From positions 1 through 46,722 of the forward strand of contig CAMDQJ010000015.1 of the NCBI GenBank assembly GCA_945905835.1: 46,722 nucleotides of DNA, written 5' to 3'. Every line of letters begins with the position of its first letter. Position 1 is the first letter of the stretch. A program made the translations under genes and the position numbers. Shown here piece after piece: positions 6,696 through 22,232 of the stretch. This DNA is from Asaia bogorensis (GTDB lineage: Bacteria; Pseudomonadota; Alphaproteobacteria; Reyranellales; Reyranellaceae). The notes under the pieces were generated by a model that was not told where the DNA came from, made no database searches, and saw only the letters and a list, made by a program, of their open reading frames with translations.

Positions 6696-6714
6696 TAGGG
6701 CTTCGGCCCCTATT
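6696..6714. terminator. Possible bidirectional terminator hairpin between convergent operons
   Basis: GGGCTTCGGCCC (6698-6709) forms a 4-bp GC stem around a TTCG tetraloop, with flanking TA/TA allowing slight extension, followed on the plus strand by TATTT. It lies between the end of the sugar ABC operon and the TAG (6710-6712) of the last nucleoside-operon gene. The stem is short and the T tract weak, so termination is plausible but unproven. Confidence 0.4.
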
Positions 6715-7564
6715 TCGGTCCCGGCCAGCCCTCGAGCGCGTCGTACTTCGCCTTGCGCTGCTCCTCGCGCGACTTCTTGAAGTCGTGGCCGAACGGCGCG
6801 GTGTCGAACGAGCCGTAGGTCGGGTTGGCGATCACCAGCCATTCGCGGCCCCAGCGCGCCCTGTTCTCCTCGAAGGCCTTGTCGCGATCGGCGAGGCTGC
6901 CGCGATAGCGGTCGTCGAAATCGCCGAAGTTGTCGCCGAAATTGAGCAGGATCCGGTAGTCCTTGGCGATGACGGCGCGGCGCGTGCCTTTCTGGCTGCC
7001 CCAGTCCGGCTTCTCGCTTTGCATCAGGAAGGTGTCGACGTTGCCGCCCATGGGAAAGCCCAGCTTCTCCATGTTCTTGCGCGTGTCGTCCTTGGTCTCG
7101 GCGCCGCGGTTGGTGACATAAAACACCTTCACGCCCTTGGAGTCGGCGTACCTGGTGAACTCCACCGCGCCCGGAACCGCCGTCGAGACTCGGGCGGCGC
7201 AGAATTCGTTCCACGTCTTGGTACTGAAGGACTGATTGGCCCGCATCATCCACACCTGGTAGCGGGAATTGTCGAGCACGGTTTCGTCGACATCGAGGAT
7301 GATCGCCGGCGGCAGGTTCTGATAATCGCCCTTCTGCTCGGCCGGTGCAGCCGTCCAGTTCTTGTCGGCCAGCGCCTCGTCGAGGCGGTAACGCGCCAGC
7401 GCGTAAACCGTGAGCGCATTGCCCTTGAACTCGACCGAGCGCTGCGTCCACAGCGTCGCCAGCAGCATGTCGCTGGGCGGCGTCGCGTCCTGGGCCCGCA
7501 CGGCGCCGATCGAGAGAATCGCAGCGAGCGCGCCCAGCATCAGGAATTTCGGTTTCGTGGTCAT
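6710..7564 (-). CDS. Exported HAD-family acid phosphatase / 5'-nucleotidase (lipoprotein e(P4)-like)
   Basis: A 284-residue class-B/C acid phosphatase-type HAD enzyme that dephosphorylates nucleoside monophosphates or other phosphate esters outside the inner membrane. A signal peptide (about residues 1-24, ending AVRA-QD) has no lipobox Cys, so the protein should be soluble and periplasmic, unlike the anchored e(P4) prototype. The catalytic HAD motif ILDVDETVLDN has the nucleophile Asp at 91 and acid/base Asp at 93; VTNR (motif II) and GDNFGDF (metal-binding motif) follow. The ATG at 7564 overlaps the add stop (ATGA) and is preceded by an AGGAGG-like site. As the last gene of a nucleoside uptake and catabolism operon it plausibly generates nucleosides for import; that role is inference. 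Confidence 0.87.
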   Translation of the reverse strand: MTTKPKFLMLGALAAILSIGAVRAQDATPPSDMLLATLWTQRSVEFKGNALTVYALARYRLDEALADKNWTAAPAEQKGDYQNLPPAIILDVDETVLDNSRYQVWMMRANQSFSTKTWNEFCAARVSTAVPGAVEFTRYADSKGVKVFYVTNRGAETKDDTRKNMEKLGFPMGGNVDTFLMQSEKPDWGSQKGTRRAVIAKDYRILLNFGDNFGDFDDRYRGSLADRDKAFEENRARWGREWLVIANPTYGSFDTAPFGHDFKKSREEQRKAKYDALEGWPGPK

Positions 7565-8520
7565 CGTGCGGCCTCCTTGAGCAGTCGCGTTTTCGTCGCC
7601 TCGTCGGCGAAAGATGCCTCGATCGCCGTGCGCGTGATGGCGCGCAATTGCGGTTCCGTGAGCCCCGCCAGGTCGTATTCGCGGCCGAGCGTGGTGTGGA
7701 AGTGCGGTGGGTCGTCGGAGTTGAGGGTGACGCGGACACCGGCGTCGATCAACCGGCGCAGCGGGTGATGGGGGCGATCGGGATACAGACCCAGTGCGAT
7801 GTTGCTGCCGGGGCAGACTTCCAGGACGGTGCCGCGCTTGGCCAGTTCGGCCACCAGCGCCGGGTCCTCGATCGAGCGCACGCCATGCCCGATGCGACTG
7901 ACCGGCAGCGCCTTCAGCGCGGCCCATACGCTCTCCGGCCCGCAGACCTCGCCGGCATGCACGGTGCAGCCGTAACCGTTGTCGGCAGCGATGCGATAGG
8001 CCGGCGCGAAGTCGGCCGGAGTGAACTTGGCCTCGTCGCCGCCCATGCCGAACCCCACGACATGGGGATGCGGCTCGGCCACCATGGACCGCGCCATGGC
8101 CAGCGCTCGGTCGGGTCCGAAATGACGGACGCAGATGACGATGATGCGGCCCTCGATGCCGAAATCGGCACGGGCACGATCGACACCGCCGACAAGGCCG
8201 GCAAGCCAGTCCGCGTAGGACATGCCGCGCGCCGTGGCGCGCTCGGGTGAACAGAAGATCTCGGCATAGACGGCGCCCTCGCGCGCGATCGAGCCGAGGT
8301 AGGAATGGATCACGTCGCCGAAATCGGTCGGGGTCAGGACGGCGAGGCAAACCCGGTCGTAGGAATCGAGGAAACTCAGGAAATCGCGCCAGGCGAAGGT
8401 GCCGGCGGCATCGAACATGTTGGCCGGGAATGTCACGCCGTTGCGCAACGCCAGCTCACGCGCCAGGGCGGGCGAGATCGAACCTTCGAGGTGGCAATGC
8501 AGTTCGGCCTTGGCAATCAC
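7561..8520 (-). CDS. add: Adenosine deaminase
   Basis: A 319-residue metal-dependent deaminase converting adenosine (or deoxyadenosine) to inosine. The zinc site is seen as HCHLEG (His8, His10), the catalytic region as VHAGEVCGPESVW, then RIGHGVRSI, and the last metal Asp in LNSDDPPHF. It starts with GTG at 8520, whose GTGA overlaps the stop of the dioxygenase gene, and ends overlapping the phosphatase start. Length and motifs fit Add; the closely related adenine deaminases share these motifs, so base versus nucleoside preference is not certain. The operon context with PNP and a nucleoside importer favours nucleoside. Confidence 0.9.
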   Translation of the reverse strand: MIAKAELHCHLEGSISPALARELALRNGVTFPANMFDAAGTFAWRDFLSFLDSYDRVCLAVLTPTDFGDVIHSYLGSIAREGAVYAEIFCSPERATARGMSYADWLAGLVGGVDRARADFGIEGRIIVICVRHFGPDRALAMARSMVAEPHPHVVGFGMGGDEAKFTPADFAPAYRIAADNGYGCTVHAGEVCGPESVWAALKALPVSRIGHGVRSIEDPALVAELAKRGTVLEVCPGSNIALGLYPDRPHHPLRRLIDAGVRVTLNSDDPPHFHTTLGREYDLAGLTEPQLRAITRTAIEASFADEATKTRLLKEAAR

Positions 8521-9317
8521 TTAAAACCCCGCAACGGCAGACCCGGACGTTGTAGCCAATTGTCGGCTTCATAGGTAGCCGCCCCGTCGATCAGGTGCAG
8601 GGAATAGGCGTGGCGCGGGCTCGCGGAGCGGTTGGCGACGCTGGCATGCGGCAGCGGGCCGTGCAGGACGACCAGCGTGCCGCGCCGCGCCTCCAACGCC
8701 ACCGGCTCGACCCCCGGCCACGGCGTCGCATCGAGGTCGCGCGTCCTAAGCCGGTCGCCGTCGTAACCGAACCACTTGCGCAACGGCCCGCGATGGGCGC
8801 CCGGCAGGGTCATCAGGCAGCCATTGTCGCGCGTGGCGTCGTCGAGCGCGATCCAGAAGCCCGTGACGCTGGCGGGTACGGTGCGCAGGTAGGTGGCGTC
8901 CTGGTGCCAATCGACCTCGCCGCCGATATGCGGCTGCTTGAACAGGTACATGGACTGTAGCAGCAGCGGTCGAACGATCCCGAGCGCATGGGCGAGCCCG
9001 GCGAACCTTGGATGGCGCGAAACGCGGTCGAACACCGGATCGAGATCGTGCAAAGCGTGGCCGATCTTGTTCAGCGCCAGTGCCGTCGGCTCGGCGGTCG
9101 CTTCCTCCTCGAAGAAGAAGCGGATGGCGCCACCGGACTCGCAAAAATAGGCATCGCGCGCATGCGCCTGATCGCGGCTCGAGAAGGCCGTGCGCAGCGG
9201 CCCGGGATCGAAGCCTGCCACCAACTCCGCCGCCCGCGCCTGCAGGGCATCACAGTCGCCGGGCGGCAGGAAGTCCGGCACCACCAGAAAGCCGTCACGT
9301 TCGAAGGCGGCATTCAC
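8517..9317 (-). CDS. Phytanoyl-CoA dioxygenase (PhyH) family Fe(II)/2-oxoglutarate oxygenase, PHYHD1-like
   Basis: A 266-residue double-stranded beta-helix dioxygenase. The iron facial triad is visible as His138-x-Asp140 in DWHQDATYL and a distal His at about 224 in GPLPHASVANRS; Arg235 is a candidate 2-oxoglutarate ligand. The segments SMYLFKQPHIGGEVDWHQD and LPGAHRGPLRKW recall the PHYHD1 subgroup rather than true phytanoyl-CoA hydroxylase. It starts at GTG 9317 with a 4-base overlap to the deoA stop, and its stop overlaps the add start, so it is tightly embedded in the nucleoside operon. The substrate is unknown; a nucleoside, base or sugar-phosphate derivative is inferred from context only. 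Confidence 0.87.
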   Translation of the reverse strand: MNAAFERDGFLVVPDFLPPGDCDALQARAAELVAGFDPGPLRTAFSSRDQAHARDAYFCESGGAIRFFFEEEATAEPTALALNKIGHALHDLDPVFDRVSRHPRFAGLAHALGIVRPLLLQSMYLFKQPHIGGEVDWHQDATYLRTVPASVTGFWIALDDATRDNGCLMTLPGAHRGPLRKWFGYDGDRLRTRDLDATPWPGVEPVALEARRGTLVVLHGPLPHASVANRSASPRHAYSLHLIDGAATYEADNWLQRPGLPLRGFK

Positions 9318-10636
9318 CGGACGACGCGCTCCATGATCACGGGCCTTTCCGGAGGTGCCGTATCGGCGATGCGGACCGCACGTCGGACAATGTCGATGGC
9401 CTCCTCGGCCCCGGCCTCGGTCGCGGCATGAACGAGGCAAAGCGGCTCGCCGCTCCGGACGCGCTCGCCGACATCGACGAATTCGGTCAGGCCGACCGCG
9501 GGATCGATGGCGGCGTCGGCATGGCTGCGGCCTCCGCCCAGCGCCACCACGGCGATGCCGACCTGACGGGCGTTCATGCCCGCGACATGGCCGGAGCGCT
9601 CGGCCGGGCACGGCACGATCACCGGCGCGTGGCCGAGATAGGCCGACGGCCGCTCGAGGAAATCGTTGGGGCCGCCCAGCGCCGACACCATCTTGGCGAA
9701 CTTTTCCGCCGCGCGGCCGTCCTCAAGCGCCGCCTCGGCGCGGGCCCGGCCAGCGGCCGCGCTGGTTGCCAGACCGCCAAGGGCGACCATCTCGCCCGCC
9801 AGCGCCATCACGACCTCATGCAACCGCGGCTCGCGCACGCCCTCGCCCTTCAGGTAAGCCACCGTCTCGGCGACCTCGACGCCATTGCCGACATCGCGGC
9901 CGAGCACGCGATCCATGTCGGTGATCAGCGCCACCGTCGGCAGGCTGGCCTGGTTGGCGACGGCCACGAGGCTCTTAGCCAGATCGCGCGCCATTTCCTC
10001 GGTGTCGCAGAACGCGCCGGAACCGCACTTCACGTCCATCACCAGCCCGTCGAGCCCCTCGGCGATCTTCTTGGACAGGATCGAGCTCACGATCAGCGGG
10101 ATCGACTCGACGCTGCCTGTGACATCGCGCGTGGCATAGAGCCGCCGGTCGGCCGGGGCGAGATCGTCGGTCTGACCGATCACCGCGCAGCCGACCTCGC
10201 GCACGACACGCCGGAAGGTGGCGATGTCGGGCTGAGTCTCGTAGCCCGAGATCGCCGAAAGCTTGTCGAGCGTGCCACCGGTATGGCCGAGACCGCGACC
10301 GGAAATCATCGGCACGAAAGCGCCGCAGGCCGCCACGATTGGCGCCAGCATCAGGCTCACCTTGTCGCCGACGCCGCCGCTCGAATGCTTGTCGATCACC
10401 GGGCCGGGCAGGCCGAGCGGCTTCCAGTCGAGCTGCGTGCCCGAGCGCACCAGCGCCAGGGTGAAGGCCACGCGCTCCGCCGTGGTCATGCCGCGGAAAA
10501 ACACCGCCATGGCGAAGGCCGCGACCTGACCTTCGCTCAGGCTGCCGTCGGAGATGCCGTGCACGATGGCGGCGATCTCCTCGTCCGACAGCTCCCGGCC
10601 GTCGCGTTTGCGGCGGATGATCTCCTGCGGCAGCAT
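9314..10636 (-). CDS. deoA: Thymidine phosphorylase
   Basis: A 440-residue member of the thymidine/pyrimidine-nucleoside phosphorylase family. It splits thymidine or deoxyuridine with phosphate into base plus 2-deoxyribose-1-phosphate. The family signature SGRGLGHTGGTLDKL is at about residues 114-128, the phosphate-binding KHSSGGVGDK at about 83, and MDVKCGSGAF further on. Length matches E. coli DeoA. It lies between the PNP gene (4-base gap) and the PhyH-type dioxygenase (4-base overlap). No deoB or deoC is present in the window, so handling of the released deoxyribose-1-phosphate must be encoded elsewhere. Confidence 0.94.
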   Translation of the reverse strand: MLPQEIIRRKRDGRELSDEEIAAIVHGISDGSLSEGQVAAFAMAVFFRGMTTAERVAFTLALVRSGTQLDWKPLGLPGPVIDKHSSGGVGDKVSLMLAPIVAACGAFVPMISGRGLGHTGGTLDKLSAISGYETQPDIATFRRVVREVGCAVIGQTDDLAPADRRLYATRDVTGSVESIPLIVSSILSKKIAEGLDGLVMDVKCGSGAFCDTEEMARDLAKSLVAVANQASLPTVALITDMDRVLGRDVGNGVEVAETVAYLKGEGVREPRLHEVVMALAGEMVALGGLATSAAAGRARAEAALEDGRAAEKFAKMVSALGGPNDFLERPSAYLGHAPVIVPCPAERSGHVAGMNARQVGIAVVALGGGRSHADAAIDPAVGLTEFVDVGERVRSGEPLCLVHAATEAGAEEAIDIVRRAVRIADTAPPERPVIMERVVR

Positions 10637-10640
10637 GGGC

Positions 10641-11402
10641 CTAGGAATAGCGCTCGAGGAAAGTGCGCAACAGCCGGCGTACCCGGTCCGCCGACCCCCG
10701 CGCCACGGCCAGAGTCTGCTCGTGGCCGAGCTTTTCCGCGGTCAGGCCGGCCGCGTAGTTGGTCATCAAGGAAAGCGCCGCGACTTTCATTTTGGCGTGG
10801 CGGGCTAAAATGGTTTCGGGCGCCGTCGACATGCCGACGGCATCGGCGCCCAATGCTTTAGCCGCACGGATTTCGGCCGGCGTCTCGAAGCTCGGGCCAC
10901 TGAACCAGATGTAGACGCCCTCGAACACGCCCTCGCCCGCCGCGACCAATTGCGCGCGCAGGCCGGGATCGTAGGCGTCCATCATGTCGACGAAGCGGTT
11001 GTCGCCGGTCTCGCCGAACAGCGGATTGACACCGGTGAAGTTGATGTGGTCGGTCACCGCCATGACGGAACCGGGCGGCATGTCCATGCGCAGGCTGCCG
11101 GCGGCATTGGTCAGCAGCAGAGTCTCACAGCCCGCCGCGGCCAGCGCGCGGATCGCACCCTTCATCTCGTCGGGCCTGCCGCGCTCGTAGTAGTGCGCGC
11201 GGCCCTGCAGCACGGCGACCTTGGTCGGACCGACATGGCCCAGCACCAGGCGGCCGGCATGGCTGCCGACGCCGGTCGGCGGAAAGCCCGGCAGATCGCC
11301 ATAGGAAATCGTGTCGACCGCCTTCACGTCCTCGGCGAAACCGCCGAGGCCCGAGCCCAGGACGACGGCGACCCGGGGCTTGAAGCGGTCGAGCGCCGTC
11401 AC
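10641..11402 (-). CDS. Purine-nucleoside phosphorylase (trimeric type)
   Basis: A 253-residue phosphorylase cleaving inosine or guanosine to base and ribose-1-phosphate. The N-terminal VVLGSGLGG phosphate loop (about 14-22), GRAHYYE, the SGPSFETPAEIRA segment and the purine-site region SLMTNYAAG place it with the low-molecular-mass, human-type PNPs (PunA/XapA like) rather than hexameric DeoD. It starts with GTG at 11402, overlapping the cytidine deaminase stop by 4 bases (GTGA). With add in the same operon it completes adenosine to inosine to hypoxanthine. Confidence 0.92.
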   Translation of the reverse strand: MTALDRFKPRVAVVLGSGLGGFAEDVKAVDTISYGDLPGFPPTGVGSHAGRLVLGHVGPTKVAVLQGRAHYYERGRPDEMKGAIRALAAAGCETLLLTNAAGSLRMDMPPGSVMAVTDHINFTGVNPLFGETGDNRFVDMMDAYDPGLRAQLVAAGEGVFEGVYIWFSGPSFETPAEIRAAKALGADAVGMSTAPETILARHAKMKVAALSLMTNYAAGLTAEKLGHEQTLAVARGSADRVRRLLRTFLERYS

Positions 11403-11809
11403 GCCCCACCGATTTTATGAGGCCCGAGATTATGCGGGCCGAACGACATCGGCAGCAGCGAGCCCAGCGTCACCGTACGGCGCAGGCCGTCGGGATGGCA
11501 GAGATGGATCAGCATGTTGTCGTCGCCAAATTCGCGCAGCTTCTGGCGGCAGCCGCCGCAGGGCGTGACGATCTCCACGCCCGGTCCCATGACCACGCAT
11601 TCCAGGATGCGGCGCTGGCCGGCGCCGACCATGGCGGCAATGGCCGAGACCTCGGCGCACCAGCCTTGCGGATAGGCAGCGTTCTCGACATTGCAGCCGC
11701 CGTGGATCGAGCCGTCGTCGCTCTTCACAACGGCGCCGACATGGAACTTGGAATAGGGCGCATAGGCGCGCGCCATCATGGTGCGCGCAAGGCGGATCAT
11801 GTCCTCCAT
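11399..11809 (-). CDS. cdd: Cytidine deaminase
   Basis: A 136-residue homotetrameric-type enzyme converting cytidine or deoxycytidine to the uridine form. The zinc and catalytic residues are present: CAE (Cys51-Ala-Glu53) and PCGGC (Cys84 and Cys87); GCNVENAAYP is the substrate-binding segment. Residues 52 to 57 read AEVSAI rather than the more common AERVAI, a mild variation. The ATG at 11809 follows the upstream permease stop directly (TGAGATG). A longer upstream reading frame exists but only repeats permease sequence out of frame. Its uridine or deoxyuridine product could feed DeoA. Confidence 0.93.
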   Translation of the reverse strand: MEDMIRLARTMMARAYAPYSKFHVGAVVKSDDGSIHGGCNVENAAYPQGWCAEVSAIAAMVGAGQRRILECVVMGPGVEIVTPCGGCRQKLREFGDDNMLIHLCHPDGLRRTVTLGSLLPMSFGPHNLGPHKIGGA

Positions 11810-11810
11810 C

Positions 11811-12731
11811 TCAGTGTTCTTTCTCGTAAGGGACTCCCACGGCCTTGGGGGCGATCGCCCGGCCGATGAAGCCCGCCAGCAGGAACATGGTGAGAAGATA
11901 GGGCAAGGCCTGGAACAATTGCACCGGCACTTCACCGATCCCCGGCACCGTCACGCCCTGCAGGCGGATGGCGATGGCGTCGAGAAGGCCGAAGATCAGG
12001 CAGGCGCCGAAGGCCGGCCACGGCCGCCACTTGCCGAAGATGATGGCGGCCACCGCGATGAAGCCCTGCCCCGCCGTCATGTCGCGGCTGAAGGCCGCGT
12101 TCTGGGCGATCGCGAGATAGGCGCCGGCCAGGCCGGAGAACAGGCCGCACAGCAGCACCGCGCGATAGCGCAGCCACGACACCGAGATGCCGGCGGCATC
12201 GACGGCGATCGGCATTTCGCCGACGGCGCGCAGGCGCAGGCCGAAGCGCGTGCGCTCGACGATCCACCAGGTGAGCGGCACCGACAGCAGCGCCACGTAG
12301 ACCAGGATGTTGTCGCCGGCGCCGGGCAGGAACAGCGGCATCAGGCGTTGGCCGGCGGCGAGATCGGGAGTCTGGCCGCCGCGCGCGAACCATGCCGTGC
12401 CCAGCACCACCGTGAGCCCGGCGGCAAGAATGTTGATGGCGACGCCGCTCACCACCTGGTTGCCGCGATGGGTGATGCAGGCAAAGCCGTGCAGCAGCGC
12501 CATCGCCTCGGCGGCAAGGATCGCCACCAGGACGCCGAGCCACGGCGAGCCGGTGACCGCCGCGGTCGAGGCGGCAGCGAAGGCCGCCATCAGCATCTTG
12601 CCCTCGAGCCCGACATCGATGATGCCGCTGCGCTCGGAAAACAACCCGCCCATGGCGCACAGCACCAGCGGTGTCGCCACCCGGAAGGTGGCGGCGCCCG
12701 TGGCAAACAGCAGGGTGAGGATTTCGTCCAT
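11811..12731 (-). CDS. Nucleoside ABC transporter permease 2 (BmpC/YufQ-like)
   Basis: An inner-membrane permease of 306 residues of the BPD_transp_2 family with about eight to nine hydrophobic segments. SERSGIIDVGLEGKMLMAAF near residue 32 is the conserved cytoplasmic motif of nucleoside-type permeases, and AGAYLAIAQNAAFSRDMTAG lies further on. Its ATG at 12731 overlaps the stop of the first permease (ATGA). With the products of 12731-15351 and the BMP lipoprotein-like binding protein it forms a PnrA/BmpDEFG-type purine nucleoside importer, as supported by the salvage enzymes downstream. Confidence 0.92.
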   Translation of the reverse strand: MDEILTLLFATGAATFRVATPLVLCAMGGLFSERSGIIDVGLEGKMLMAAFAAASTAAVTGSPWLGVLVAILAAEAMALLHGFACITHRGNQVVSGVAINILAAGLTVVLGTAWFARGGQTPDLAAGQRLMPLFLPGAGDNILVYVALLSVPLTWWIVERTRFGLRLRAVGEMPIAVDAAGISVSWLRYRAVLLCGLFSGLAGAYLAIAQNAAFSRDMTAGQGFIAVAAIIFGKWRPWPAFGACLIFGLLDAIAIRLQGVTVPGIGEVPVQLFQALPYLLTMFLLAGFIGRAIAPKAVGVPYEKEH

Positions 12732-13828
12732 CAGCGCGCGCGGAAGAACAGAGACTGCAGCCACGGTCGTGGCAGGTTGGCGAGGGCGCCGGAGAACAGG
12801 ATGATCAGGCCCTGGATGACCACGACCATCTCGCGCGTCATGGCGGAGATCTCCATCGAAAGCTCGGCGCCGCCCTGCTGCAGCGCGCCGAACAGGAGTG
12901 CGGCCAGCGCAATGCCCAGAGGATGGGAGCGGCCCATCAGCGCCACGGCGATGCCGGCAAAGCCGTAGCCCGCGGGGAAATCGAGCACGATGCGGTGATG
13001 CACGCCTAGAAGCTCGTTGACGCCAACGCCGCCGGCCAGCGCGCCGGAGAGGCACATGCCGAGCATGGTCATGCGCCGGATGTTGACGCCGGCATAGATC
13101 GCGGCGTCGGGGTTCTGGCCCATGGTGCGCAAGGTGTAGCCCCACGAGGTGTGCCAGAGGAACACCCAGACCAGCACGCAGCACAGTGCCGCCAGCACGA
13201 TGGAGAGGTTGAGCGCCGACGGCGCCACTGTGATGCCGATAGCATGCAGCAAGTCGTGCATCGCCGGCAGCTTGCCGGCCTCGCCGAAGCCACGGCTCTG
13301 CGGCGTCATCGAGCCGGGTGCAATCAGCACGTTCACCATCAGGTAGACCATCAATGCCGAGGCCACGAAGTTGAACATGATGGTGGTGATGACGATGTGG
13401 CTGCCGCGCCACGCCTGCAGCCAGGCCGGCACGGCGGCCCAGGCGGCGCCGAACAGCGCCGCGGCCGCTATGGCGATCGGGATCAGCAGCCAGAACGGCA
13501 AGTAGCGGTCGAGCGCCAGCACCGCCAGCCCGCAGCCCAGGCCACCGATATAGGCCTGGCCCTCGCCGCCGATGTTGAACAGGCCGGCATGGAAGGCGAC
13601 GGCGACGGCAAGGCCGGTGAAGGCGAAATTGGTGGCGTAGTAGAGCGTGTAGCCGATCGATTCGGACGAGCCGATCGCGCCCGTCACCAGCAGGCGCAGC
13701 GCAAGCAGAGGATCGACGCCGATCAGGCGCACGATGATGCCGACCGTCAAAAAGGCGAGCGCGATGTTGATCAGCGGCATCAGCGCGATCTCGGCCCAGG
13801 TCGGCAGTGGCCGTCGCGGACCGCTCAT
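12731..13828 (-). CDS. Nucleoside ABC transporter permease 1 (BmpB/YufP-like)
   Basis: An inner-membrane permease of 365 residues, longer at the N-terminus than its partner, as is usual for the YufP-type subunit. The family motif FHAGLFNIGGEGQAYIGGL is at about residues 78-96. Other marks are MVNVLIAPGSMTPQS in the periplasmic insertion and NPDAAIYAGVNIRRMTML. It begins with ATG 13828 overlapping the ATPase stop (ATGA) and ends overlapping the start of permease 2, so all importer genes are translationally coupled. Confidence 0.92.
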   Translation of the reverse strand: MSGPRRPLPTWAEIALMPLINIALAFLTVGIIVRLIGVDPLLALRLLVTGAIGSSESIGYTLYYATNFAFTGLAVAVAFHAGLFNIGGEGQAYIGGLGCGLAVLALDRYLPFWLLIPIAIAAAALFGAAWAAVPAWLQAWRGSHIVITTIMFNFVASALMVYLMVNVLIAPGSMTPQSRGFGEAGKLPAMHDLLHAIGITVAPSALNLSIVLAALCCVLVWVFLWHTSWGYTLRTMGQNPDAAIYAGVNIRRMTMLGMCLSGALAGGVGVNELLGVHHRIVLDFPAGYGFAGIAVALMGRSHPLGIALAALLFGALQQGGAELSMEISAMTREMVVVIQGLIILFSGALANLPRPWLQSLFFRAR

Positions 13829-15351
13829 GCCGCGGCCGCTCCCGCCATCATCAACCCCAGCTTTCGCTCGTCGGCCTCGCCCGCCGCGACTTCGCCGACG
13901 ATGCGGCCGGCGAACATCACCAGGATGCGGTCGGCCAAGGACAAAATCTCGTCGAGCTCGACGGAGACCACGAGCACGGCGCAGCCCTCGTCGCGGCTGT
14001 TGACGAGCTGGCGATGGATGAACTCGATGGCGCCGATGTCGACGCCACGCGTCGGCTGGCCGACCAGCAGCACCTTGGGTTTGCGCGCCATCTCGCGCGC
14101 CAGGATCAGCTTCTGCTGGTTGCCGCCGGAGAAATGCGAGGAGCGCAGGCCGGGCGAGCGCGGACGGACGTCGAAGCGCTCCATCAGCTCGGCGCAATGC
14201 GCGCCGGCGGCGGGATTGTTCAGGATGTAGTTGCGGCTGAACGGCGGGCCGGACTGGTAGCCGAGGATCGAGGTCTCCGAAGCGCGGAACGTGCCCACCA
14301 TGCCCTGGCGCTGGCGGTCTTCCGGGACATGGGCGAGGCCCAGTTCGCGCATTTCGGCGGGGCCGGCGAGATGGCCCGCATCGATCGCCCTGTCGCATAC
14401 GGTGAGCCGCCCTCCGGTCGGCGCGAGGATGCCGGCCAGCACCTGCAGCAGCTCGGTCTGGCCATTGCCCGAGACGCCGGCGATGCCGACGATTTCGCCG
14501 GCGCGCAGTTCCAGATCGACTTCGTCGAGCAGCTTCACGCCGCGCCGGTCGACCAGCGACAGGCGCTCGGCACGGAGCAGCACCTCACCCGGCCGCGGGG
14601 CGACCTTGTCCATCTCCAGCCGCACCTTGCGGCCGACCATCAGCTCGGCCAGATCCTCGGGGTCGGTGTCGGCGGTGCGCCGGTCGGCCACGACCTGGCC
14701 CTGGCGCATGACATAAACCGCGTCGGTAATGGCCATGATCTCGCGCAGCTTGTGGGTGATCAGCACCACGGTGACGCCGCGCTCGCGCAGCGTGCCCAGG
14801 ATGCGAAAGAGCTGGTCGGTCTCCTGCGGCGTCAGCACCGCGCTCGGCTCGTCGAGGATGAGGATGCGCGCGCCGCGGAACAGCACTTTTAGAATCTCGA
14901 CACGCTGCTGCTCACCCACGGAAAGGTCGGCGATTCGCGCGTCAGGGTCGATGGTAAGGCCGTATTCGCGAGCCAGTCGCCCGAGTTCGGTCCGCGCCGC
15001 AGCCAGCCCCTTGGCCAACAGCGGCCCGCCCTCGGAGCCGAGCACGAGATTCTCCAGCACGGTAAAAGTATCGATCAGCATGAAATGCTGGTGGACCATG
15101 CCGATACCGCGCGCGATGGCGTCGCGCGGACTTTCGATCTTCATCAACTCGCCGTCGACCCGGATCTCTCCTGCATCGGCCTGGTAGAGGCCGTACAGGA
15201 TGCTCATCAGCGTCGACTTGCCGGCGCCGTTCTCGCCGACGATGCCGGTGATCGAACCCCTGGCGATGGCCAGCGACACGCCGCGATTGGCGTGGACCGT
15301 GCCGAACGACTTGTCGATGCCTCTGAGTTCGATTGCCGGCGGAGCCGGCAT
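13825..15351 (-). CDS. Nucleoside ABC transporter ATP-binding protein, duplicated ABC domains (YufO/RbsA-like)
   Basis: A 508-residue ATPase made of two fused ABC domains. The first has Walker A GENGAGKST (39-47), signature LSVGEQQR and Walker B ILILDEPSAVLTP. The second has a divergent Walker A (GVSGNGQTEL), signature FSGGNQQK and the segment VLLVGQPTRGVD in place of a canonical Walker B, as usual in this family. The ATG at 15351 overlaps the BMP gene stop (ATGA), matching the pattern across the operon. A GTG at 15363 would add four residues but lies inside the previous coding sequence. Confidence 0.92.
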   Translation of the reverse strand: MPAPPAIELRGIDKSFGTVHANRGVSLAIARGSITGIVGENGAGKSTLMSILYGLYQADAGEIRVDGELMKIESPRDAIARGIGMVHQHFMLIDTFTVLENLVLGSEGGPLLAKGLAAARTELGRLAREYGLTIDPDARIADLSVGEQQRVEILKVLFRGARILILDEPSAVLTPQETDQLFRILGTLRERGVTVVLITHKLREIMAITDAVYVMRQGQVVADRRTADTDPEDLAELMVGRKVRLEMDKVAPRPGEVLLRAERLSLVDRRGVKLLDEVDLELRAGEIVGIAGVSGNGQTELLQVLAGILAPTGGRLTVCDRAIDAGHLAGPAEMRELGLAHVPEDRQRQGMVGTFRASETSILGYQSGPPFSRNYILNNPAAGAHCAELMERFDVRPRSPGLRSSHFSGGNQQKLILAREMARKPKVLLVGQPTRGVDIGAIEFIHRQLVNSRDEGCAVLVVSVELDEILSLADRILVMFAGRIVGEVAAGEADERKLGLMMAGAAAA

Positions 15352-16355
15352 CAGGGCTTGCACGAATTGTTGCTCATATAGTCGTACACGACGATCTTGC
15401 CCGAGACGATGCCGGCCTTGGCCGCGTCGACCTTGGCTTTCATGTCGGCGCTGACCAGCTTCTCGTTGTCCTTGTCGAGCGCCCAGTCGACGCCGCCTTC
15501 CTTGAGGCCGAGCACCGAGACGCCGGCCTTCCAGGTGCCGCCCTGAGCCGCCTTGAAGCTCTGATAGGCCGCGAGATCCACGCGCTTCATCATCGAGGTC
15601 AGCATGGTACCGGGGTGCAGATGATTCTGGTTGGAATCGACGCCGATCGCGTACTTACCGCGATCCTTGGCGGCCTGCAGGACGCCGGTGCCGGTGCTGC
15701 CGGCGGCGGCATAGACGACGTCGACGCCGCGGTCGAACTGGCCCTTGGCGAGCTCGGCGCCACGGCCGGGATCGTTCCACGCGGCTGGCGTCGTGCCGGT
15801 CATGTTGGCGATGAGCTCGGCCTTGGCATTGGCGTACTTGATGCCCTGCTCGTAGCCGCACTGGAAGCGACGGATCAGCGGGATGTCCATGCCGCCGACG
15901 AAGCCCACCTTGCCGGTCTTCGACGCAAGGGCCGCCAGCATGCCGACCAGGAACGAGCCTTCATGCTCCTTGAACACGACCGACTGCACGTTGGGCAGCG
16001 GCACGACCATATCGATCAGGGTGAAGCGGACGGCCGGGAATTCCTTGGCGATCTTCTCCAGCGCCACGGCCTGCGAGAAGCCGACGGCGACGATCGGGTC
16101 CTGGCCACGCTGGGCGAAGCGGCGGTGCGCCTGCTCGAACTGCGTCTCGTTGCTGGGCTCGAACTCGGCGACGTCGATCTTGGTCTCGGCCTTGAACTTC
16201 GCCGCACCCTGGCTTACGCCCTCGTTGAACGATTTGTCGAACTTGCCGGCGGTCGAGTAGACGATGGCGGGCTTGATGGCGGTCTGCGCCTGCACGGCGA
16301 GGCTCACTGCGGTGACGGCGGTGAGCGCGATAAACGATCCGAGAATGCGGTTCAT
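15351..16355 (-). CDS. BMP-family nucleoside-binding protein
   Basis: A 334-residue periplasmic binding protein of the BMP/PnrA family, which bind purine nucleosides for ABC import. The signal peptide is about residues 1-23 (MNRILGSFIALTAVTAVSLA, then VQA-QT). It has no lipobox Cys, so it is soluble rather than the lipoprotein seen in spirochetes and Gram-positives. Family marks are the FDKSFNEG segment (about 38), VGFVGGMDIPLIRRF, and GVDVVYAAAGSTGTG followed by GVDSNQN. It is the first gene of the ten-gene nucleoside operon; an AGGGGA site precedes the ATG. No convincing promoter was found in the 96-base gap to the upstream operon. Confidence 0.92.
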   Translation of the reverse strand: MNRILGSFIALTAVTAVSLAVQAQTAIKPAIVYSTAGKFDKSFNEGVSQGAAKFKAETKIDVAEFEPSNETQFEQAHRRFAQRGQDPIVAVGFSQAVALEKIAKEFPAVRFTLIDMVVPLPNVQSVVFKEHEGSFLVGMLAALASKTGKVGFVGGMDIPLIRRFQCGYEQGIKYANAKAELIANMTGTTPAAWNDPGRGAELAKGQFDRGVDVVYAAAGSTGTGVLQAAKDRGKYAIGVDSNQNHLHPGTMLTSMMKRVDLAAYQSFKAAQGGTWKAGVSVLGLKEGGVDWALDKDNEKLVSADMKAKVDAAKAGIVSGKIVVYDYMSNNSCKP

Positions 16356-16451
16356 GCGGGTCCCCTGGCCCGCTGCCTGCGGACTCTGAGGCCAAGTCTG
16401 ACGCGGCCTGCCGGGCAACGCCAGCCCGTCCGATGCTTAGTCTTTAAGCGC

Positions 16452-17951
16452 TCAATCCTTGAGCACGTACCCGTAGCGCCGGTGGGACGGATCGGCACCG
16501 TTCTTCTCGTACTGGGTCTTGATCGCGGCAAAACGGTCGTCGCGCCACGCCGCTTTCTTGACCTCGTAGCGGTACATCTTGGCCGAGTTCTCGCCGAAGA
16601 TCGCCCGCTTGACAGGCCCGTCGGCCGGACCGAGCTCGGCAAAGCCATATTTGCGGCGCATGTCCTCGGGGATTTCCAGGCGGCGCAGGCCCTCGATCTG
16701 CCATTGCGGCGCACCGGTCCACAGCGCGTCGGTGCCCCACACGACATGATCGACGCCCATGCCCTTGATCAGGGTGCCCATCAGGGCAGTGCACAGGCGC
16801 GGTTCGGTCACGGTCGTCTGGGCGAAGATCTGGCCGAGGTCGGCGTAGACGTTGCTTACACCAAACCTACCCGGAATGTCGGCGAGGTCGCTGGTCCATT
16901 CGACCCGGCCGGTCTTCTCGAACTGGGCATAGCCGTCGACGGCGGCGCCGGGCGCGCCGGTCCAGCGGAAAGCCGAGTGATAGACGACGAAGCGGATCTG
17001 CGGCCAGTCCTTGGCGGCCTTGCCGACGTCGTCGACCGTGGCGTAGGGCGCCAGATGCGGCCAGCGCTTCTCGGTCGAGGGCGGATAGAGGCCCTTGTGG
17101 ACGCAGACGATGTTGTGGCCGGCCTTCACGAGCTTGTCGTAGAACGGATAGATCAGCTTCTCGTCGTCCATGCGCCAGGGATGGCGCGCCAGGTCCTTGT
17201 TGGTGTTGTCGCCGACCGTGTAGCCCTTCCATGAGTCGGGCTTCAGCGTCGCAATGGCACGGTCGACCTCGTCCATCCAGCCGTCATAGCCCGGCACGAA
17301 GATGGCGTGCGACAGGCAGCGCCGTGAACCGGCCGCGTTGTTCACCCGCGTGCGAGCATCGAGCTTCATGTCGTTGGTTAAAAACCAGTCGCGCGGATCT
17401 TCCGACGGCGAGCCGCTGATCAACGCCACCTTGGTGTCGCTGTCGAGATAGATCTCTTTGAACCAGTTCGGATACTTCAAATCCTCGAGGGTCTGGGGCT
17501 TGCCGACCAGCGCCGGATTCCAGCCCGCCTTGCCGACCGCCTCGCGGCCGCGCACGAAACCTTCCAGCCGCGTGTCGTCGCGCAGGAAGTGGGTGTGCAC
17601 GTCCATGATGAACTGGTCTTTGAGTTCCGTGGCGCGCGCCTGAGCCAGATCGACGCTCTTGGCCTCGGCGGGCGAAGCGCCATAGAGCGGACCGTAGACT
17701 TCGTTCATCGCCACGAACGCCGTCGCCATGCCGGCCGCGGTCTGGAAGAAGCGACGCCGCGGCAGGCCGTTCTTCTTGCCGTACTCGTCTCCCAGCGCGT
17801 TCATGCGCGCCTCGACCTGCTTCTGCCGCGCCGTCTGGGCGACCGGCATGAATTCGTCGCTCGAGACGACGTGAGTCGGCACCGGCGTCGGGTTGGCGGT
17901 CAGCTCGGCCGGCGAAAGTTTGGCGTATTCTTCGTCGCTCAACATGCCCAT
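16452..17951 (-). CDS. Amidohydrolase family protein with internal twin-arginine motif
   Basis: A 499-residue TIM-barrel metal-dependent hydrolase of the amidohydrolase-2 type. The metal motif MDVHTHF is at about residue 115; a conserved YHSAF and VVWGTDALW near the C-terminus provide further metal/catalytic candidates. A Tat-like segment (PRRRFFQTAAGMATAFVAMN, from residue 64) sits behind ~60 polar residues rather than at the N-terminus. A start at Met50 (17804) would give a normal Tat leader, but the ATG at 17951 has a GGAAG ribosome site. It is the last gene of the nitrile operon, 16 bases after the LLM gene. Reaction and substrate are unknown; hydrolysis or decarboxylation of an aromatic or cyclic product is typical of the family. 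Confidence 0.82.
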   Translation of the reverse strand: MGMLSDEEYAKLSPAELTANPTPVPTHVVSSDEFMPVAQTARQKQVEARMNALGDEYGKKNGLPRRRFFQTAAGMATAFVAMNEVYGPLYGASPAEAKSVDLAQARATELKDQFIMDVHTHFLRDDTRLEGFVRGREAVGKAGWNPALVGKPQTLEDLKYPNWFKEIYLDSDTKVALISGSPSEDPRDWFLTNDMKLDARTRVNNAAGSRRCLSHAIFVPGYDGWMDEVDRAIATLKPDSWKGYTVGDNTNKDLARHPWRMDDEKLIYPFYDKLVKAGHNIVCVHKGLYPPSTEKRWPHLAPYATVDDVGKAAKDWPQIRFVVYHSAFRWTGAPGAAVDGYAQFEKTGRVEWTSDLADIPGRFGVSNVYADLGQIFAQTTVTEPRLCTALMGTLIKGMGVDHVVWGTDALWTGAPQWQIEGLRRLEIPEDMRRKYGFAELGPADGPVKRAIFGENSAKMYRYEVKKAAWRDDRFAAIKTQYEKNGADPSHRRYGYVLKD

Positions 17952-17967
17952 GACCGACTTCCGGCTC

Positions 17968-19134
17968 TCAGGAATGGAATCGCGGCATCACCTTGGTCCA
18001 GAACTTCTCGATCGACTTCATCAGGACGGGATGCGGCACCAGGCTATTGTAAGTGTAGCAGAAGGTCCAATCCACCGGCTGGCGTTTTTGCGCCGCCTCC
18101 ATGGAGCGCAGCACGGTGTCGACCGTGCCGACATAGGCGTAGCCCGTCGCAATTATCTCCTCGGCGGTGGGGAATTTTCCGGTGACGGGGTCCTGCAGGC
18201 CCTTGCGGAAGCCGAACGGCTCGAACCAGGCGCGACCGGAGAACTGCCCGGAATCGCGCCACAGCGCCATCGCCTCCTCGTCGGTATCGGCGATGATGAC
18301 GTCTCGCAGCACACCCATGCCGACGCCTTTAGGTTTGCCGGAAACCTGCGAATAGACGCTGTAGAGCTTGTCCTCATAGGTCGGGTGCATCGGCGGCAGG
18401 ATCGGCGTGATGCCTTCCTGGGCGCAGAAGCGCACAGTGTTCTCCGAACTGGCGAAAGGCTGAAAGAGCGGCGGGTGCGGCTTCTGCAACGGCTTGGGCA
18501 CGACGCCGACCGACTTCAGGATGCCGTTCTCGACGCCCTTGCCCCACTTCGCCGTCGTGTCGAGATCCCACGGCGTCGGGCCAGCAGGAATCTTCCAGAA
18601 TTTGCCGTCGTAGGTCAGCATCTCCTCGGTCCAGCATTTCTTGACGATGCGGAAGTTCTCCTCGAAGGCCAGGCGATTGGCGTTGTCGATCTCGTCGTGC
18701 TGGTTGGGCAATGCGCCGTGGATGCCGTGCGTCTGCTGCGCCATGACATCGACCCAGCGACGCTGGTAACCGCGGGCAAAGCCGGCATTGGCGCGCCCGC
18801 CCGTCATGTGATCGAGCATGGCGATGTCCTCGGCGACGCGGATCGGGTTGGACGCCGGCAACACGATGCCGAGCTGGCCGACCCTGATGCGCTTGGTCTG
18901 CATCGCGAAGTAGAGGTCGAGCAGCACCGGATTGTTCGAAAGCTCGAAGCCCTCGATATGGAAGTGATGCTCGGTGAAACTCACCGAATCGTAGCCGAGC
19001 TCGTCGCCGAGCTTTATCTGCTCCGTCAGCTCCTTCAGCATGCGCTGGTAGAACAGCGGGTTCATGCCGGCCATGCCGGCCTCGATCTCGGCGCGGCTGC
19101 CGATGCTGGGCAGGTAGAAGAGCGAGGCTTTCAT
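17968..19134 (-). CDS. LLM-class flavin-dependent oxidoreductase (luciferase-like monooxygenase)
   Basis: A 388-residue bacterial-luciferase-fold flavin enzyme, which uses FMNH2 or F420 to oxidise its substrate. Conserved segments are SVSFTEHHFHIEGFELSNNP (about residues 50-69), LGIVLPASNPIRVAEDIAML and FARGYQRRWVDVMAQ; this is the usual LLM N-terminal beta/alpha core. The C-terminal ADTDEEAMALW and a GTPxxV-like YVGTVDTVL are typical. It sits 13 bases downstream of the amidase and 16 upstream of the amidohydrolase, hence is co-transcribed. A role in oxidising the carbon skeleton of the nitrile or amide substrate is plausible but inferred from context. Confidence 0.88.
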   Translation of the reverse strand: MKASLFYLPSIGSRAEIEAGMAGMNPLFYQRMLKELTEQIKLGDELGYDSVSFTEHHFHIEGFELSNNPVLLDLYFAMQTKRIRVGQLGIVLPASNPIRVAEDIAMLDHMTGGRANAGFARGYQRRWVDVMAQQTHGIHGALPNQHDEIDNANRLAFEENFRIVKKCWTEEMLTYDGKFWKIPAGPTPWDLDTTAKWGKGVENGILKSVGVVPKPLQKPHPPLFQPFASSENTVRFCAQEGITPILPPMHPTYEDKLYSVYSQVSGKPKGVGMGVLRDVIIADTDEEAMALWRDSGQFSGRAWFEPFGFRKGLQDPVTGKFPTAEEIIATGYAYVGTVDTVLRSMEAAQKRQPVDWTFCYTYNSLVPHPVLMKSIEKFWTKVMPRFHS

Positions 19135-19147
19135 TGTTTTCTCCCGT

Positions 19148-20599
19148 TTATGCGGAGGATGGTGGCACGGTTCCCGGCTTGGGGTCGATGGGCAGCAGGC
19201 GATCGAGACCCACCATCTTTTCGTACAGCGACGCGGCCTGCAGGAGGGCGGCTTCGCCGCGCGGCTTGCCGACGATCTGCAGACCGACCGGCCGGCCGTG
19301 CCGATCGAAGCCGCAGGGCACGGCGATGGCCGGGCTGCCGCTCACGGTGATGGCCGAGTTGGCCGTCGAACCGCCCATGTAGTTGTCGAGCGTCTGGCCG
19401 CCGATGGTCTCGGGCGCGCGCAAATTGACGTCGAACGCCGCGGTCGGTGCGCCCGGCGTCACGAACAGATCGTACTTCTGGAAGAACACGACCATGCGCC
19501 GGAAAAGGGCTGCCCGCTCGCGCTCGGCCCAGGCCAGCCGGCTGGTGGTCTGTTTCAGCCCGAGCTCGGTGTTCCAGATGATGTCGGGTTTGAGCTTGCC
19601 GCGCTGCTCGAGGAGCTGCAGCTCGCGGTCGACGACGAAGTGCTGGTTGCGCAGCGCCATGAAAACCTCGTCGACCGGACCGAAATCGGGCGACGCCTCC
19701 TCGACGATGCAGCCCAGCTCCTCGAAACGGCGCATCGCCCTGGCGCAGATCTCGCGGACATCGCTGTCGAGTCGCATCGTGCCGTTGAAGTCGACGCTGA
19801 CGGCGATGCGTTTCGGCATCACGGGATTGGCCACCGCGGCGCTGAACGATACGGCAGGGGCGTCGAAGGTCTGCGGATCCTGCGGGCAGAACCCGGCCAT
19901 GGTGTCGAGGAAGAGCGCCAGGTCGGGCACGTTCCTTGCCATGGGGCCCTGCACCGATTGCACCGAATAGAGATTGTTCACCGTGCCGCGCGTCACCCGG
20001 CCGGCCGACGGCCGGATGCCGACCACCGAGCAATAGGTGCCGGGCCGGCGCAGCGAGCCGCCATGGTCGGTGCCCTGCGCCAGCCAGACCTCGCCGGTCG
20101 CGACCGAAACCGCGCCGCCGCCGGTCGACCCTCCACATGTCAGCGAGGTGTTCCACGGATTGCGCGTCTTGCCGAAGACCTCGTTGAAGGTGCTGCCGCC
20201 GGCGCCAAATTCCGGCGTGTTCGACTTGCCGACCACGATGCCACCCTTGCGCTCGATACGCTCGATGAGAGGGTGCGACTTGGCCGGCACGTGATCGGCG
20301 AAGATCAGCGAGCCGTAGGTCGTGCGCACGCCGGCGACGTCGTTCAGGTCCTTGATCGAGACCGGCAGGCCGGCGAGCCAGCCTGCTTCGCCGGAGGCTT
20401 CGCAGGCTGCGCCCGACATGATGCGTTTGGCGTGGTCGCGGGCGCGATCGAAACAGAGGGTCGGCATCGCGTTCACGGTTGGCTCGACCTCGGCGATGCG
20501 CTTCTCGGCGGCGTCAATCAGGTCGAGCGGCGAGATTTCGCGCTTCTTCAGCCGCGCCACCGCCTCCATTGCGGTCAGTTTCCAAAGCTCGTTACTCAT
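19148..20599 (-). CDS. Amidase (amidase-signature family)
   Basis: A 483-residue amidase hydrolysing an amide to carboxylate and ammonia. The catalytic triad is complete: Lys83 in PVSIKDLND, cis-Ser158 in CGGSTGGG and nucleophile Ser182 in GTDHGGSLRRP; the residue after the cis-Ser is Thr instead of the usual Ser. The ATG at 20599 (MSNELWK) has a GGAG site 5 bases upstream and is preferred over an in-frame TTG at 20614. It lies directly after the nitrile hydratase subunit and activator genes, so it most likely hydrolyses the amide made by nitrile hydratase, the standard two-step nitrile pathway. Confidence 0.92.
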   Translation of the reverse strand: MSNELWKLTAMEAVARLKKREISPLDLIDAAEKRIAEVEPTVNAMPTLCFDRARDHAKRIMSGAACEASGEAGWLAGLPVSIKDLNDVAGVRTTYGSLIFADHVPAKSHPLIERIERKGGIVVGKSNTPEFGAGGSTFNEVFGKTRNPWNTSLTCGGSTGGGAVSVATGEVWLAQGTDHGGSLRRPGTYCSVVGIRPSAGRVTRGTVNNLYSVQSVQGPMARNVPDLALFLDTMAGFCPQDPQTFDAPAVSFSAAVANPVMPKRIAVSVDFNGTMRLDSDVREICARAMRRFEELGCIVEEASPDFGPVDEVFMALRNQHFVVDRELQLLEQRGKLKPDIIWNTELGLKQTTSRLAWAERERAALFRRMVVFFQKYDLFVTPGAPTAAFDVNLRAPETIGGQTLDNYMGGSTANSAITVSGSPAIAVPCGFDRHGRPVGLQIVGKPRGEAALLQAASLYEKMVGLDRLLPIDPKPGTVPPSSA

Positions 20600-20624: not shown

Positions 20625-20966
20625 CTAGGGCAGCTCGACCGGCCGACCGTGCGGCGTCGTGCGATAGGCCTCGGCCCAGGCCCTGACTCGCCCGTCGAGC
20701 GTCGCCAGATCGGTCAGGGACTTGGCGAGGCTCAGCCGTTCGAGCGCCACGAGCCAATGCTCGTAATAGTGCGAGCCGTCGTCCGGTCCTGCCTCGCGCA
20801 GCACGCCCGAAAACGTCTCGACCCATTCGCTCCAGGTGAAGCGACCGGCTTCGCAGAGCTGCAGGGCGAGCGCGAAGGCCTGCGCCTGCCAGGGTTCGGC
20901 AAAGACCGGGCCGTCAGCGTCGCGCGGCAGGCTGGGCAGCGCGTCGAGCCGCTCACGCTGGCTCAA
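20625..20966 (-). CDS. Nitrile hydratase accessory/activator protein (small, P14K-like)
   Basis: A 113-residue protein resembling the small activator that co-operates with Co-type nitrile hydratase and is related to the beta-subunit N-terminal fold. The segment FAEPWQAQAFALALQLCEAG is characteristic, followed by FTWSEWVETF and SHYYEHWLVALERL. These proteins deliver the cobalt-loaded alpha subunit by subunit swapping. The reading frame opens far upstream inside the beta gene, but family similarity begins at [13 protein letters not shown]. The best start is the TTG at 20966, 6 bases after a GGGAGG site and 14 bases inside the end of the beta gene. The TTG start is an inference. Confidence 0.85.
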   Translation of the reverse strand: MSQRERLDALPSLPRDADGPVFAEPWQAQAFALALQLCEAGRFTWSEWVETFSGVLREAGPDDGSHYYEHWLVALERLSLAKSLTDLATLDGRVRAWAEAYRTTPHGRPVELP

Positions 20967-21612
20967 GGTAGTCCTCCCAGAGGTCGAGATAGACCGCGTC
21001 GGCCGGATTGGCGGCCTCGCCCCATAGCTCGCGCGCGGCGAAGCACACGGTGTAGAGGAACTGCGGGTTCTCGCCTTCGAAGCGGGCGTTGGAATCGGGA
21101 AAGACATGGGCGCCGTGATGGCACTCGATCGTGCCTTGCCGTCCGCGCACGTAGCGCGGCAGCCGCGTGTGGCCGGTCGGGTTGATGTCGCGTGCACGCA
21201 CGACGGCGCCGGAAGAGAAGCGCGCCGTGGCCGAGGTCTCGCGAAGCGTCGGACCGCCTCTGTTCAGGCTGGCCAGCACCTTGTCGGCGGTGAGCGGCGG
21301 TGTCGCGACAGGCATCGCCGGATCGCGGCGACCGGTCGCCAGTTCGCGCGGCGTGACGAGGCCGGCCTGAAGCAGCAGCTTGATCGCCGAGGCCAGCCAC
21401 TTCTCGTAGTAGCTCATGCGCAAATAATCGGCGGGCGGCAGCGTCTCGATGGTGTAGCGGCCAGCATCGATGTTCCAGCGCCGCCAGGCGCTGACGGCAC
21501 GGCGTATCGCCAGCACCCGGCCCTCCCACGGCGCATGGAATACCGGCTCGTTGGCCTCCGGCTGGACCGGCCCGAAGCCGTGCATGCCGCCCATGTCGTG
21601 GACGCCGTTCAT
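20953..21612 (-). CDS. Nitrile hydratase subunit beta
   Basis: A 219-residue beta subunit that pairs with alpha to form the active site hydrating nitriles to amides in the cytoplasm. The N-terminus [19 protein letters not shown] is the highly conserved NHase-beta opening. [33 protein letters not shown] and [10 protein letters not shown] are further landmarks; the two Arg in the ARDIN and LPRYVRG segments include those contacting the Cys-sulfenate claw of the alpha subunit. Its ATG overlaps the alpha stop (ATGA), giving the alpha-beta-activator order usual for low-molecular-mass Co-type enzymes. Confidence 0.95.
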
Positions 21613-22232
21613 GGGAGGTTCGCCTTGGTTACGCCGACCATGGCGTCGCGCGTCACCAGCGCCGCCAATGCCTCGGCATCCATGCCGTCGGTGCCGGCCG
21701 GCCGCTCGGGCAGGACGAGATAGCGGATCTCGGCGGTCGAATCCCAGACGCGCACCGCGACATCAGTCGGCAAGGTGACGCCGAACTCAGCCAGCACGCC
21801 GCGCGGGTCGATGACGGCGCGCGAGCGGTAGGCCGAGGATTTGTACCAGACCGGCGGCAGGCCGAGCACCGGCCACGGATAGCAGGAGCACAGCGTGCAG
21901 ACGACGAGGTTGTGAACGGCCGGCGTATTCTCGACCACGATCATGTGCTCGCCCTGCGCGCCGGCATAGCCAACCTCGGCGATGGCGGCAGTCGCGTCCT
22001 TGAGCAGGCGCGCCTTATAGGCGGGATCGGTCCAGGCGCGGGCGATGACGCGGGCGCCGTTGCGCGGGCCGATACGGTTCTCGAAGGCATCGACCATGAC
22101 GTCGAGCGCCGCCGGGTCGACCAGCCCCTTTTCGACCAGAAGCGACTCCAGCGCCTTTACGCGCAGCGCGGTGTCCGACGGGACATCCTGGCCGTGGCCG
22201 TGGTCGTGATCGTGGTCGTGATCCTTGCTCAT
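21609..22232 (-). CDS. Nitrile hydratase subunit alpha, cobalt type, His-rich N-terminus
   Basis: A 207-residue metal-binding subunit of nitrile hydratase. The claw-setting motif is [10 protein letters not shown] (Cys112, Cys115, Cys117); Thr in the CTLCSC version is the mark of cobalt rather than iron enzymes, which have CSLCSC. Cys115 and Cys117 are expected to be oxidised to sulfinate and sulfenate. The first 14 residues ([14 protein letters not shown]) alternate Asp/Gly and His, an unusual tail that could bind cobalt or nickel during maturation. It starts 13 bases after the MFS gene, so the whole cluster from the sulfatase gene down is one operon. Thiocyanate hydrolase gamma subunits are relatives, but the single fused beta favours nitrile hydratase. 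Confidence 0.95.

Follow-up and report, generated by a model that had tools for sequence, protein, structure and literature searches.

In the window, by which we mean the whole stretch of 46,722 nucleotides that was analysed, ten genes follow one another along the minus strand in the order BMP-type substrate-binding protein, ABC ATPase, two permeases, cdd, pnp, deoA, a dioxygenase gene, add, and a HAD acid phosphatase gene (Table 1). The sequence-only reading of this DNA had described a ten-gene operon for nucleoside import and breakdown, and this description stands because all ten genes are on the minus strand and a Pfam family was found for each. Judged from strand and spacing, the ten genes would be transcribed as a single unit. 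The products of add, deoA, pnp, and cdd each exceeded the cut-off of at least one NCBIfam model. The acid phosphatase, which has a signal-like N-terminus, scored 197.9 bits with TIGR01533, under the cut-off of 216.05 for that model, and it may make nucleosides from nucleotides ahead of import. That the importer is a vitamin B6 ABC transporter was rejected because the NCBIfam models scored far under cut-off, for example, 60.1 against 400 for the BMP protein. A phosphopentomutase gene is absent from the operon (6710-16418), and the deoB-like gene of a relative used as the query found no match in the source genome, a weak result from a search without a positive control. Upstream of the operon and on the same strand (16452-20156) are genes for an amidohydrolase and a luciferase-like monooxygenase and one further gene, and adjoining genes for the beta and alpha subunits of nitrile hydratase are found at 20953-22232, also on the minus strand. 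More PNP_UDP_1 matches are present in the source genome at C45:17745-19358 (L122-L124), one whole and one in two pieces on the opposite strand; the split match is possibly a frameshift or an assembly error.

Table 1. Genes of the nucleoside operon in the window
Feature	Position	Strand	Basis
BMP/PnrA-type substrate-binding protein	15351..16418 (start approximate)	-	PF02608, E 1.3e-64
Importer ABC ATPase	13825..15363	-	PF00005, two stretches
ABC permease 1, BMP-type importer	12731..13819 (start approximate)	-	PF02653
ABC permease 2, BMP-type importer	11811..12740 (start approximate)	-	PF02653
cdd, cytidine deaminase	11399..11815 (start approximate)	-	TIGR01354 over cut-off
pnp, purine-nucleoside phosphorylase	10641..11402	-	NF006054 over cut-off
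deoA, thymidine phosphorylase	9314..10636	-	TIGR02643, E 6e-192, over cut-off
PHYHD1-type Fe(II)/2OG dioxygenase, predicted 2'-O-methylnucleoside demethylase	8517..9317	-	PF05721, PHYHD1 matches, residues
add, adenosine deaminase	7561..8520	-	PF00962, E 2.6e-79; TIGR01430 over cut-off
HAD acid phosphatase, e(P4) 5'-nucleotidase-like	6710..7537 (start approximate)	-	PF03767, E 4e-39

The dioxygenase gene has a GTG start and codes for 266 amino acids followed by a TGA stop. It had been reported to be coupled to deoA on one side and to add on the other by 4-base overlaps, and both overlaps were read as GTGA on the minus strand, the deoA stop with the dioxygenase start at 9314-9317 and the dioxygenase stop with the add start at 8517-8520. 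The protein matches the PhyH family (PF05721) with an E-value of 1.8e-44 and 153 bits against a Pfam cut-off of 22, and it is one of 17 PhyH matches in its own 4-Mb genome, which is a large expansion. Ectoine hydroxylase (18.9 bits), chlorinating enzyme (23.5), and methylphosphonate hydroxylase (28.3) were rejected as identities because all scored far under the NCBIfam cut-offs. By sequence, the best match to a solved structure is human PHYHD1 (2opw/3obz; E 1.5e-54, 188.5 bits, residues 4-257 of 266). Human PHYH (2a1x) has the superfamily fold and the iron site in common with the window protein but is distant from it (E 2.8e-8, 36.7 bits). The same order was obtained with an AlphaFold2 model built from 18 aligned sequences (mean pLDDT 88.1), for which the leading fold matches were 3obz (E 3.4e-27) and 2opw (E 6.6e-27), both at 40% identity, and the third was 2a1x at 19% identity (E 9.4e-15). 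Thus, the term PHYHD1-like that had been given to this protein is borne out by sequence and by fold, and the dioxygenase is a member of the PHYHD1 subgroup, nearer to PHYHD1 than to PHYH or to other solved PhyH enzymes. For the distant relatives L105 and L093, too, PHYHD1 is by far the best solved match (E 1.1e-47 and 1.6e-53, respectively). It had also been stated that phytanoyl-CoA makes no sense as a substrate in this setting, and we agree, since 2a1x is far behind PHYHD1 and the gene is in a nucleoside operon; sequence, fold, and gene context all speak against a phytanoyl-CoA hydroxylase function, which was rejected. In a midpoint-rooted FastTree tree of 38 sequences (the window protein, 21 chosen relatives, and 16 paralogues, without eukaryotic sequences), the window protein and its relatives formed one clade free of paralogues, on a long branch and with a local support of only 0.688.

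The three residues that had been named as iron ligands, His138, Asp140, and His224, are present and are invariant in the 18 aligned sequences and, together with R235, in 86 distinct relatives (86 distinct proteins out of 92 loci). R235 is probably the 2-oxoglutarate arginine. In human PHYHD1, the residues K102, H105, Q139, and W277 are predicted to contact the ribose, a prediction that stems from docking and not from the structure of a complex (PMC12709175). These residues align with K84, H87, Q121, and W254 of the window protein, which are likewise predicted to contact ribose. Among the 86 distinct relatives, K84 and Q121 are found in all 86, whereas H87 and W254 are each found in 85, the exceptions being an Ala in L080 and a Gly in L099, respectively. 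The position equivalent to F161 of PHYHD1, position 143, is Tyr in the window protein and is Tyr in 42, Phe in 42, and Trp in 2 of these relatives. The K/H/Q/W set is absent from all 16 of the remaining PhyH matches of this genome, as far as can be read from an alignment that is uncertain at that distance.

Until late 2025, no physiological substrate was known for the human oxygenase PHYHD1 (PMC12709175). FJS, a bacterial dioxygenase that came from a selection with a soil metagenome, converts 2'-O-methylcytidine to cytidine and formaldehyde in a reaction that depends on 2-oxoglutarate and is enhanced by Fe(II) and ascorbate, and isoform A of human PHYHD1 demethylates 2'-O-methyl nucleosides (PMC12709175). 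Other relatives that demethylate are from animals, fungi, plants, bacteria (Sphingomonas, Poribacteria, and Acidisoma), and one virus, and zebrafish without phyhd1 build up free 2'-O-methyl nucleosides, the rise in 2'-O-methyladenosine not being significant (PMC12709175). Nucleotides, that is, the 5'-phosphates, and 3'-O-methyluridine are not substrates of FJS and human PHYHD1 (PMC12709175).

The gene neighbourhood, to whose conservation the sequence-only reading had tied its proposal, is kept among close relatives and, in the class sample, at roughly half of the distant loci. Close relatives were counted at 34 of 42 loci (L024-L057, 66-77% identity), where only loci with enough flank were included in each count; the titled entries of the 42-locus set include Reyranella soli, Vineibacter terrae, and Enhydrobacter aerosaccus ATCC 27094, as well as many MAGs under other names. 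On the same strand as the dioxygenase gene, add is downstream in 34/34 and deoA is upstream in 32/32, and pnp is found in 29/29, cdd in 28/29, the acid phosphatase gene in 31/31, and the BMP gene in 22/23. The dioxygenase stop reads NTGA in 31 of the 34 loci, as a 4-base overlap with add would require. At two loci (L056 and L114), deoA is about 3-4 kb farther from pnp than usual, an insertion in an otherwise compact operon. Similarly, deoA is upstream and add is downstream in all 15 loci taken from the family and genus (L106-L120), 5 of which encode the same protein as loci of the 42-locus set. Left out of the close-locus counts were L061-L065 (34-36% identity over 144 residues) and L058, L059, and L060, which were viewed separately: there is no recognised nucleoside gene near L058 and L059, while L060 has nucleoside genes nearby and its protein and neighbours are the same as those of L083.

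Beyond the genus, the loci examined were L066-L099, which are all 34 from the class sample, and L100-L105, six further ones from the phylum sample. Nucleoside genes are within about 9 kb of the dioxygenase gene in 18 of the 34 class loci, in 11 of 22 families, and in one of the six phylum loci (L102). Seventeen of these 18 class loci were found by tblastn with add, deoA, pnp, cdd, or the BMP protein of the window, and L093 by its nucleoside hydrolase gene; an enzyme gene is present in 16 of the 17, and L084 has the importer only, on the opposite strand. The arrangements vary. In one, the importer, pnp, deoA, and a gene for a metalloenzyme about as large as a phosphopentomutase (PF01676 in L072, with 11 loci in the same blastp cluster) are followed by the dioxygenase gene and, in some loci, by add. 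In another, the dioxygenase gene is directly upstream of the importer. At L078:8665-11012 (minus strand), it shares one base with an AMP nucleosidase gene (PF10423) and lies ahead of the BMP importer operon, and by blastp cluster L082 has the same neighbours. In L097, the dioxygenase gene and add are followed by a uracil phosphoribosyltransferase gene (PF14681), and deoA and cdd are on the other strand. At L093:8423-10223 (plus strand), in a 1.6-Mb genome of the same class, the dioxygenase gene adjoins, and in the gene calls overlaps, an inosine-uridine nucleoside hydrolase gene (PF01156). A deoB-like gene also lies beside the dioxygenase gene in relatives. An association that is kept in varying orders is stronger evidence than one inherited block.

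No recognised nucleoside gene was found nearby in 16 of the 34 class loci, 5 of which (L074, L075, L088, L091, and L096) have less than 3 kb on one side before the contig ends, and in 5 of the 6 phylum loci. Neighbours scanned in loci of this kind included genes for chorismate synthase, pirin, class II aldolases, HipA, and others. The co-location counts rest on tblastn and on Pfam searches of 30 chosen neighbours because a simple gene caller left the PHYHD gene unmarked in 10 of 47 loci; they may miss nucleoside genes of other families in loci that were scanned lightly or not at all. As a control, the regions around the 16 other PhyH genes of the source genome, at most about 9 kb per side and several of them cut by contig ends, were searched at an E-value of 1e-8, and no match to add, deoA, pnp, cdd, the permease, the phosphatase, or the BMP protein was found. 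The sole matches in these regions, other than to the PhyH proteins, were general ones to ABC ATPases.

The distribution of the dioxygenase was determined with a threshold of E 1e-30 or better and one match per positive genome, in samples that overlap and include the source genome. Of the 61 genomes of the genus, 58 carry the gene, including all 41 with a completeness of 90% or more and a contamination of 5% or less. It was found in 36 of 41 genomes of the family sample, where one genome of the same genus with 93% completeness (G811) is without it, in 38/385 of the class sample, and in 9/398 of the phylum sample. In the class and phylum searches, up to 6 candidates per genome were scored among the matches listed, and among these matches the weakest accepted had E-values of 1.7e-58 (class) and 1.4e-59 (phylum). 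Therefore, in these samples the group is well apart from the next PhyH proteins. The dioxygenase gene and its placement in the operon are not there by chance.

Since the protein belongs to the PHYHD1 subgroup, has the K/H/Q/W residues, and the activity has been published for PHYHD1 and for bacterial relatives (PMC12709175), the window gene most likely codes for a 2'-O-methylnucleoside demethylase. By analogy, we propose with considerable confidence that this PHYHD1-type dioxygenase attacks free nucleosides at the 2'-O-methyl carbon, which it would hydroxylate with the help of Fe(II), O2, and 2-oxoglutarate. The sequence-only reading had left the substrate open and had offered, as an example, the oxidation of methylated nucleosides before phosphorolysis, which is in line with the published activity of PHYHD1 and bacterial enzymes (PMC12709175); our analysis suggests that the substrate can be narrowed to 2'-O-methyl nucleosides. 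The hydroxylated product would be unstable and would lose formaldehyde to leave the unmodified ribonucleoside, and succinate and CO2 would be formed alongside. The steps would then be expected in the order phosphatase outside the cell, import, demethylation, and breakdown by Add and Pnp for purines and by Cdd and DeoA for pyrimidines, where the cargo of the importer and the block that the methyl group would place on the phosphorylases of the operon are both inferred. The placement of the dioxygenase gene behind a phosphatase and an importer fits an enzyme that requires free nucleosides because 5'-phosphates are not substrates of FJS and human PHYHD1 (PMC12709175). The purine arm would be complete, from 2'-O-methyladenosine to adenosine, inosine, and finally hypoxanthine and ribose 1-phosphate. 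For pyrimidines, the route is less clear: DeoA is of the thymidine phosphorylase type (TIGR02643), and for this reason the operon does not account for the fate of uridine from 2'-O-methyluridine. DeoA of E. coli prefers deoxynucleosides.

It could be argued that the dioxygenase has an unmethylated nucleoside as its substrate, such as a deoxynucleoside, whose hydroxylation at C2' would give a ribonucleoside to feed deoA, pnp, and add, since deoA is in the operon and deoB-like and deoC genes adjoin in relatives. DeoA and Pnp accept deoxynucleosides as they are, and hydroxylation would therefore be of no help to phosphorolysis. There is a precedent in PDN2'H, a fungal 2OG nucleoside 2'-hydroxylase cited in PMC12709175, but the residues of the window protein match those of PHYHD1, whose demonstrated substrates are 2'-O-methyl nucleosides (PMC12709175), and this makes C2' hydroxylation very unlikely. 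The adenosine deaminase gene that adjoins within a nucleoside operon could also suggest that the enzyme works on the base, by demethylation or oxidation, of a modified nucleoside such as N6-methyladenosine. This we consider less probable still, as N6,2'-O-dimethyladenosine is converted to N6-methyladenosine with the base methyl retained (PMC12709175, Table 1). Just as improbable is that an acyl-CoA or some unrelated metabolite is the substrate and that the location of the gene in the operon is incidental. The PhyH family name, the broad expansion of the family in the source genome, and the roughly half of the distant relatives that have no recognised nucleoside gene nearby could be taken to favour it. 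However, coupling to add and deoA is kept throughout the close loci and other orders occur elsewhere, the window protein is far nearer to PHYHD1 than to PHYH by sequence and fold, and activity of human PHYH on 2'-O-methyl nucleosides was not detected while FJS gave only a trace with phytanoyl-CoA (PMC12709175).

Demethylation of 2'-O-methyl nucleosides is therefore the reading that we prefer, and the nearest known enzyme is human PHYHD1, which is similar to the window protein in having about 40% identity, the same fold, the iron ligands, and the four predicted ribose-contact residues. The two differ in that the window protein is bacterial and is encoded within an operon for import and breakdown, and in that F161 and S154 of PHYHD1 are replaced by Tyr and Asp. 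The region aligned with the extra helix of PHYHD1 (Q56-L71), which is near the cavity mouth, is present in the window protein and is 4 residues shorter, and the protein is 6 residues shorter after residue 75; the AlphaFold2 model has a helix at 55-60, within a stretch with a pLDDT of about 70. FJS resembles the window protein in being a bacterial member of the PhyH family, and Tyr is the residue found in bacterial demethylases where PHYHD1 has F161, but the lid of FJS differs, with two shorter C-terminal helices near the cavity opening where PHYHD1 has the extra helix (PMC12709175). Going by this published description, FJS may represent another branch. RK9NH (PMC6278475), a 2'-O-methyluridine nucleoside hydrolase from a soil metagenome, likewise breaks down 2'-O-methyl nucleosides, but it is a hydrolase that frees the base (PMC12709175). 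PF01156 had no match in the genome of the window at an E-value of 0.001 while 5 of 14 control genomes were positive, and a nucleoside hydrolase route in this genome was rejected for lack of a match.

The reaction and the family assignment are already in print (PMC12709175), and the published function gains independent backing from the genomic setting. The operon context of PHYHD1 relatives is not discussed in the passages of PMC12709175 used here, the main text of which has the word operon once, for an E. coli pyr strain, and gene cluster once, for the RK9NH cluster; a full-text search of the open-licence literature gave nothing else relevant. It is likely, though less certain than the reaction itself, that nucleoside-feeding operons of many alphaproteobacteria include PHYHD1 as a dedicated step, which unlocks the 2'-O-methylated nucleosides of scavenged RNA debris, which phosphorylases would be unable to cleave. 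If so, the PHYHD1 family would have a catabolic role in bacteria, one that gene order backs independently, pointing to free nucleosides as published for PHYHD1. The reaction would thereby be placed in a pathway of import and breakdown and be extended to a bacterial group that is named only phytanoyl-CoA dioxygenase, for which a correction of the annotation is suggested. An example is a relative on a plasmid of Azospirillum ramasamyi (NZ_CP029836.1:15918-16706), 48% identical over 97% of the protein, whose annotation bears only that family name.
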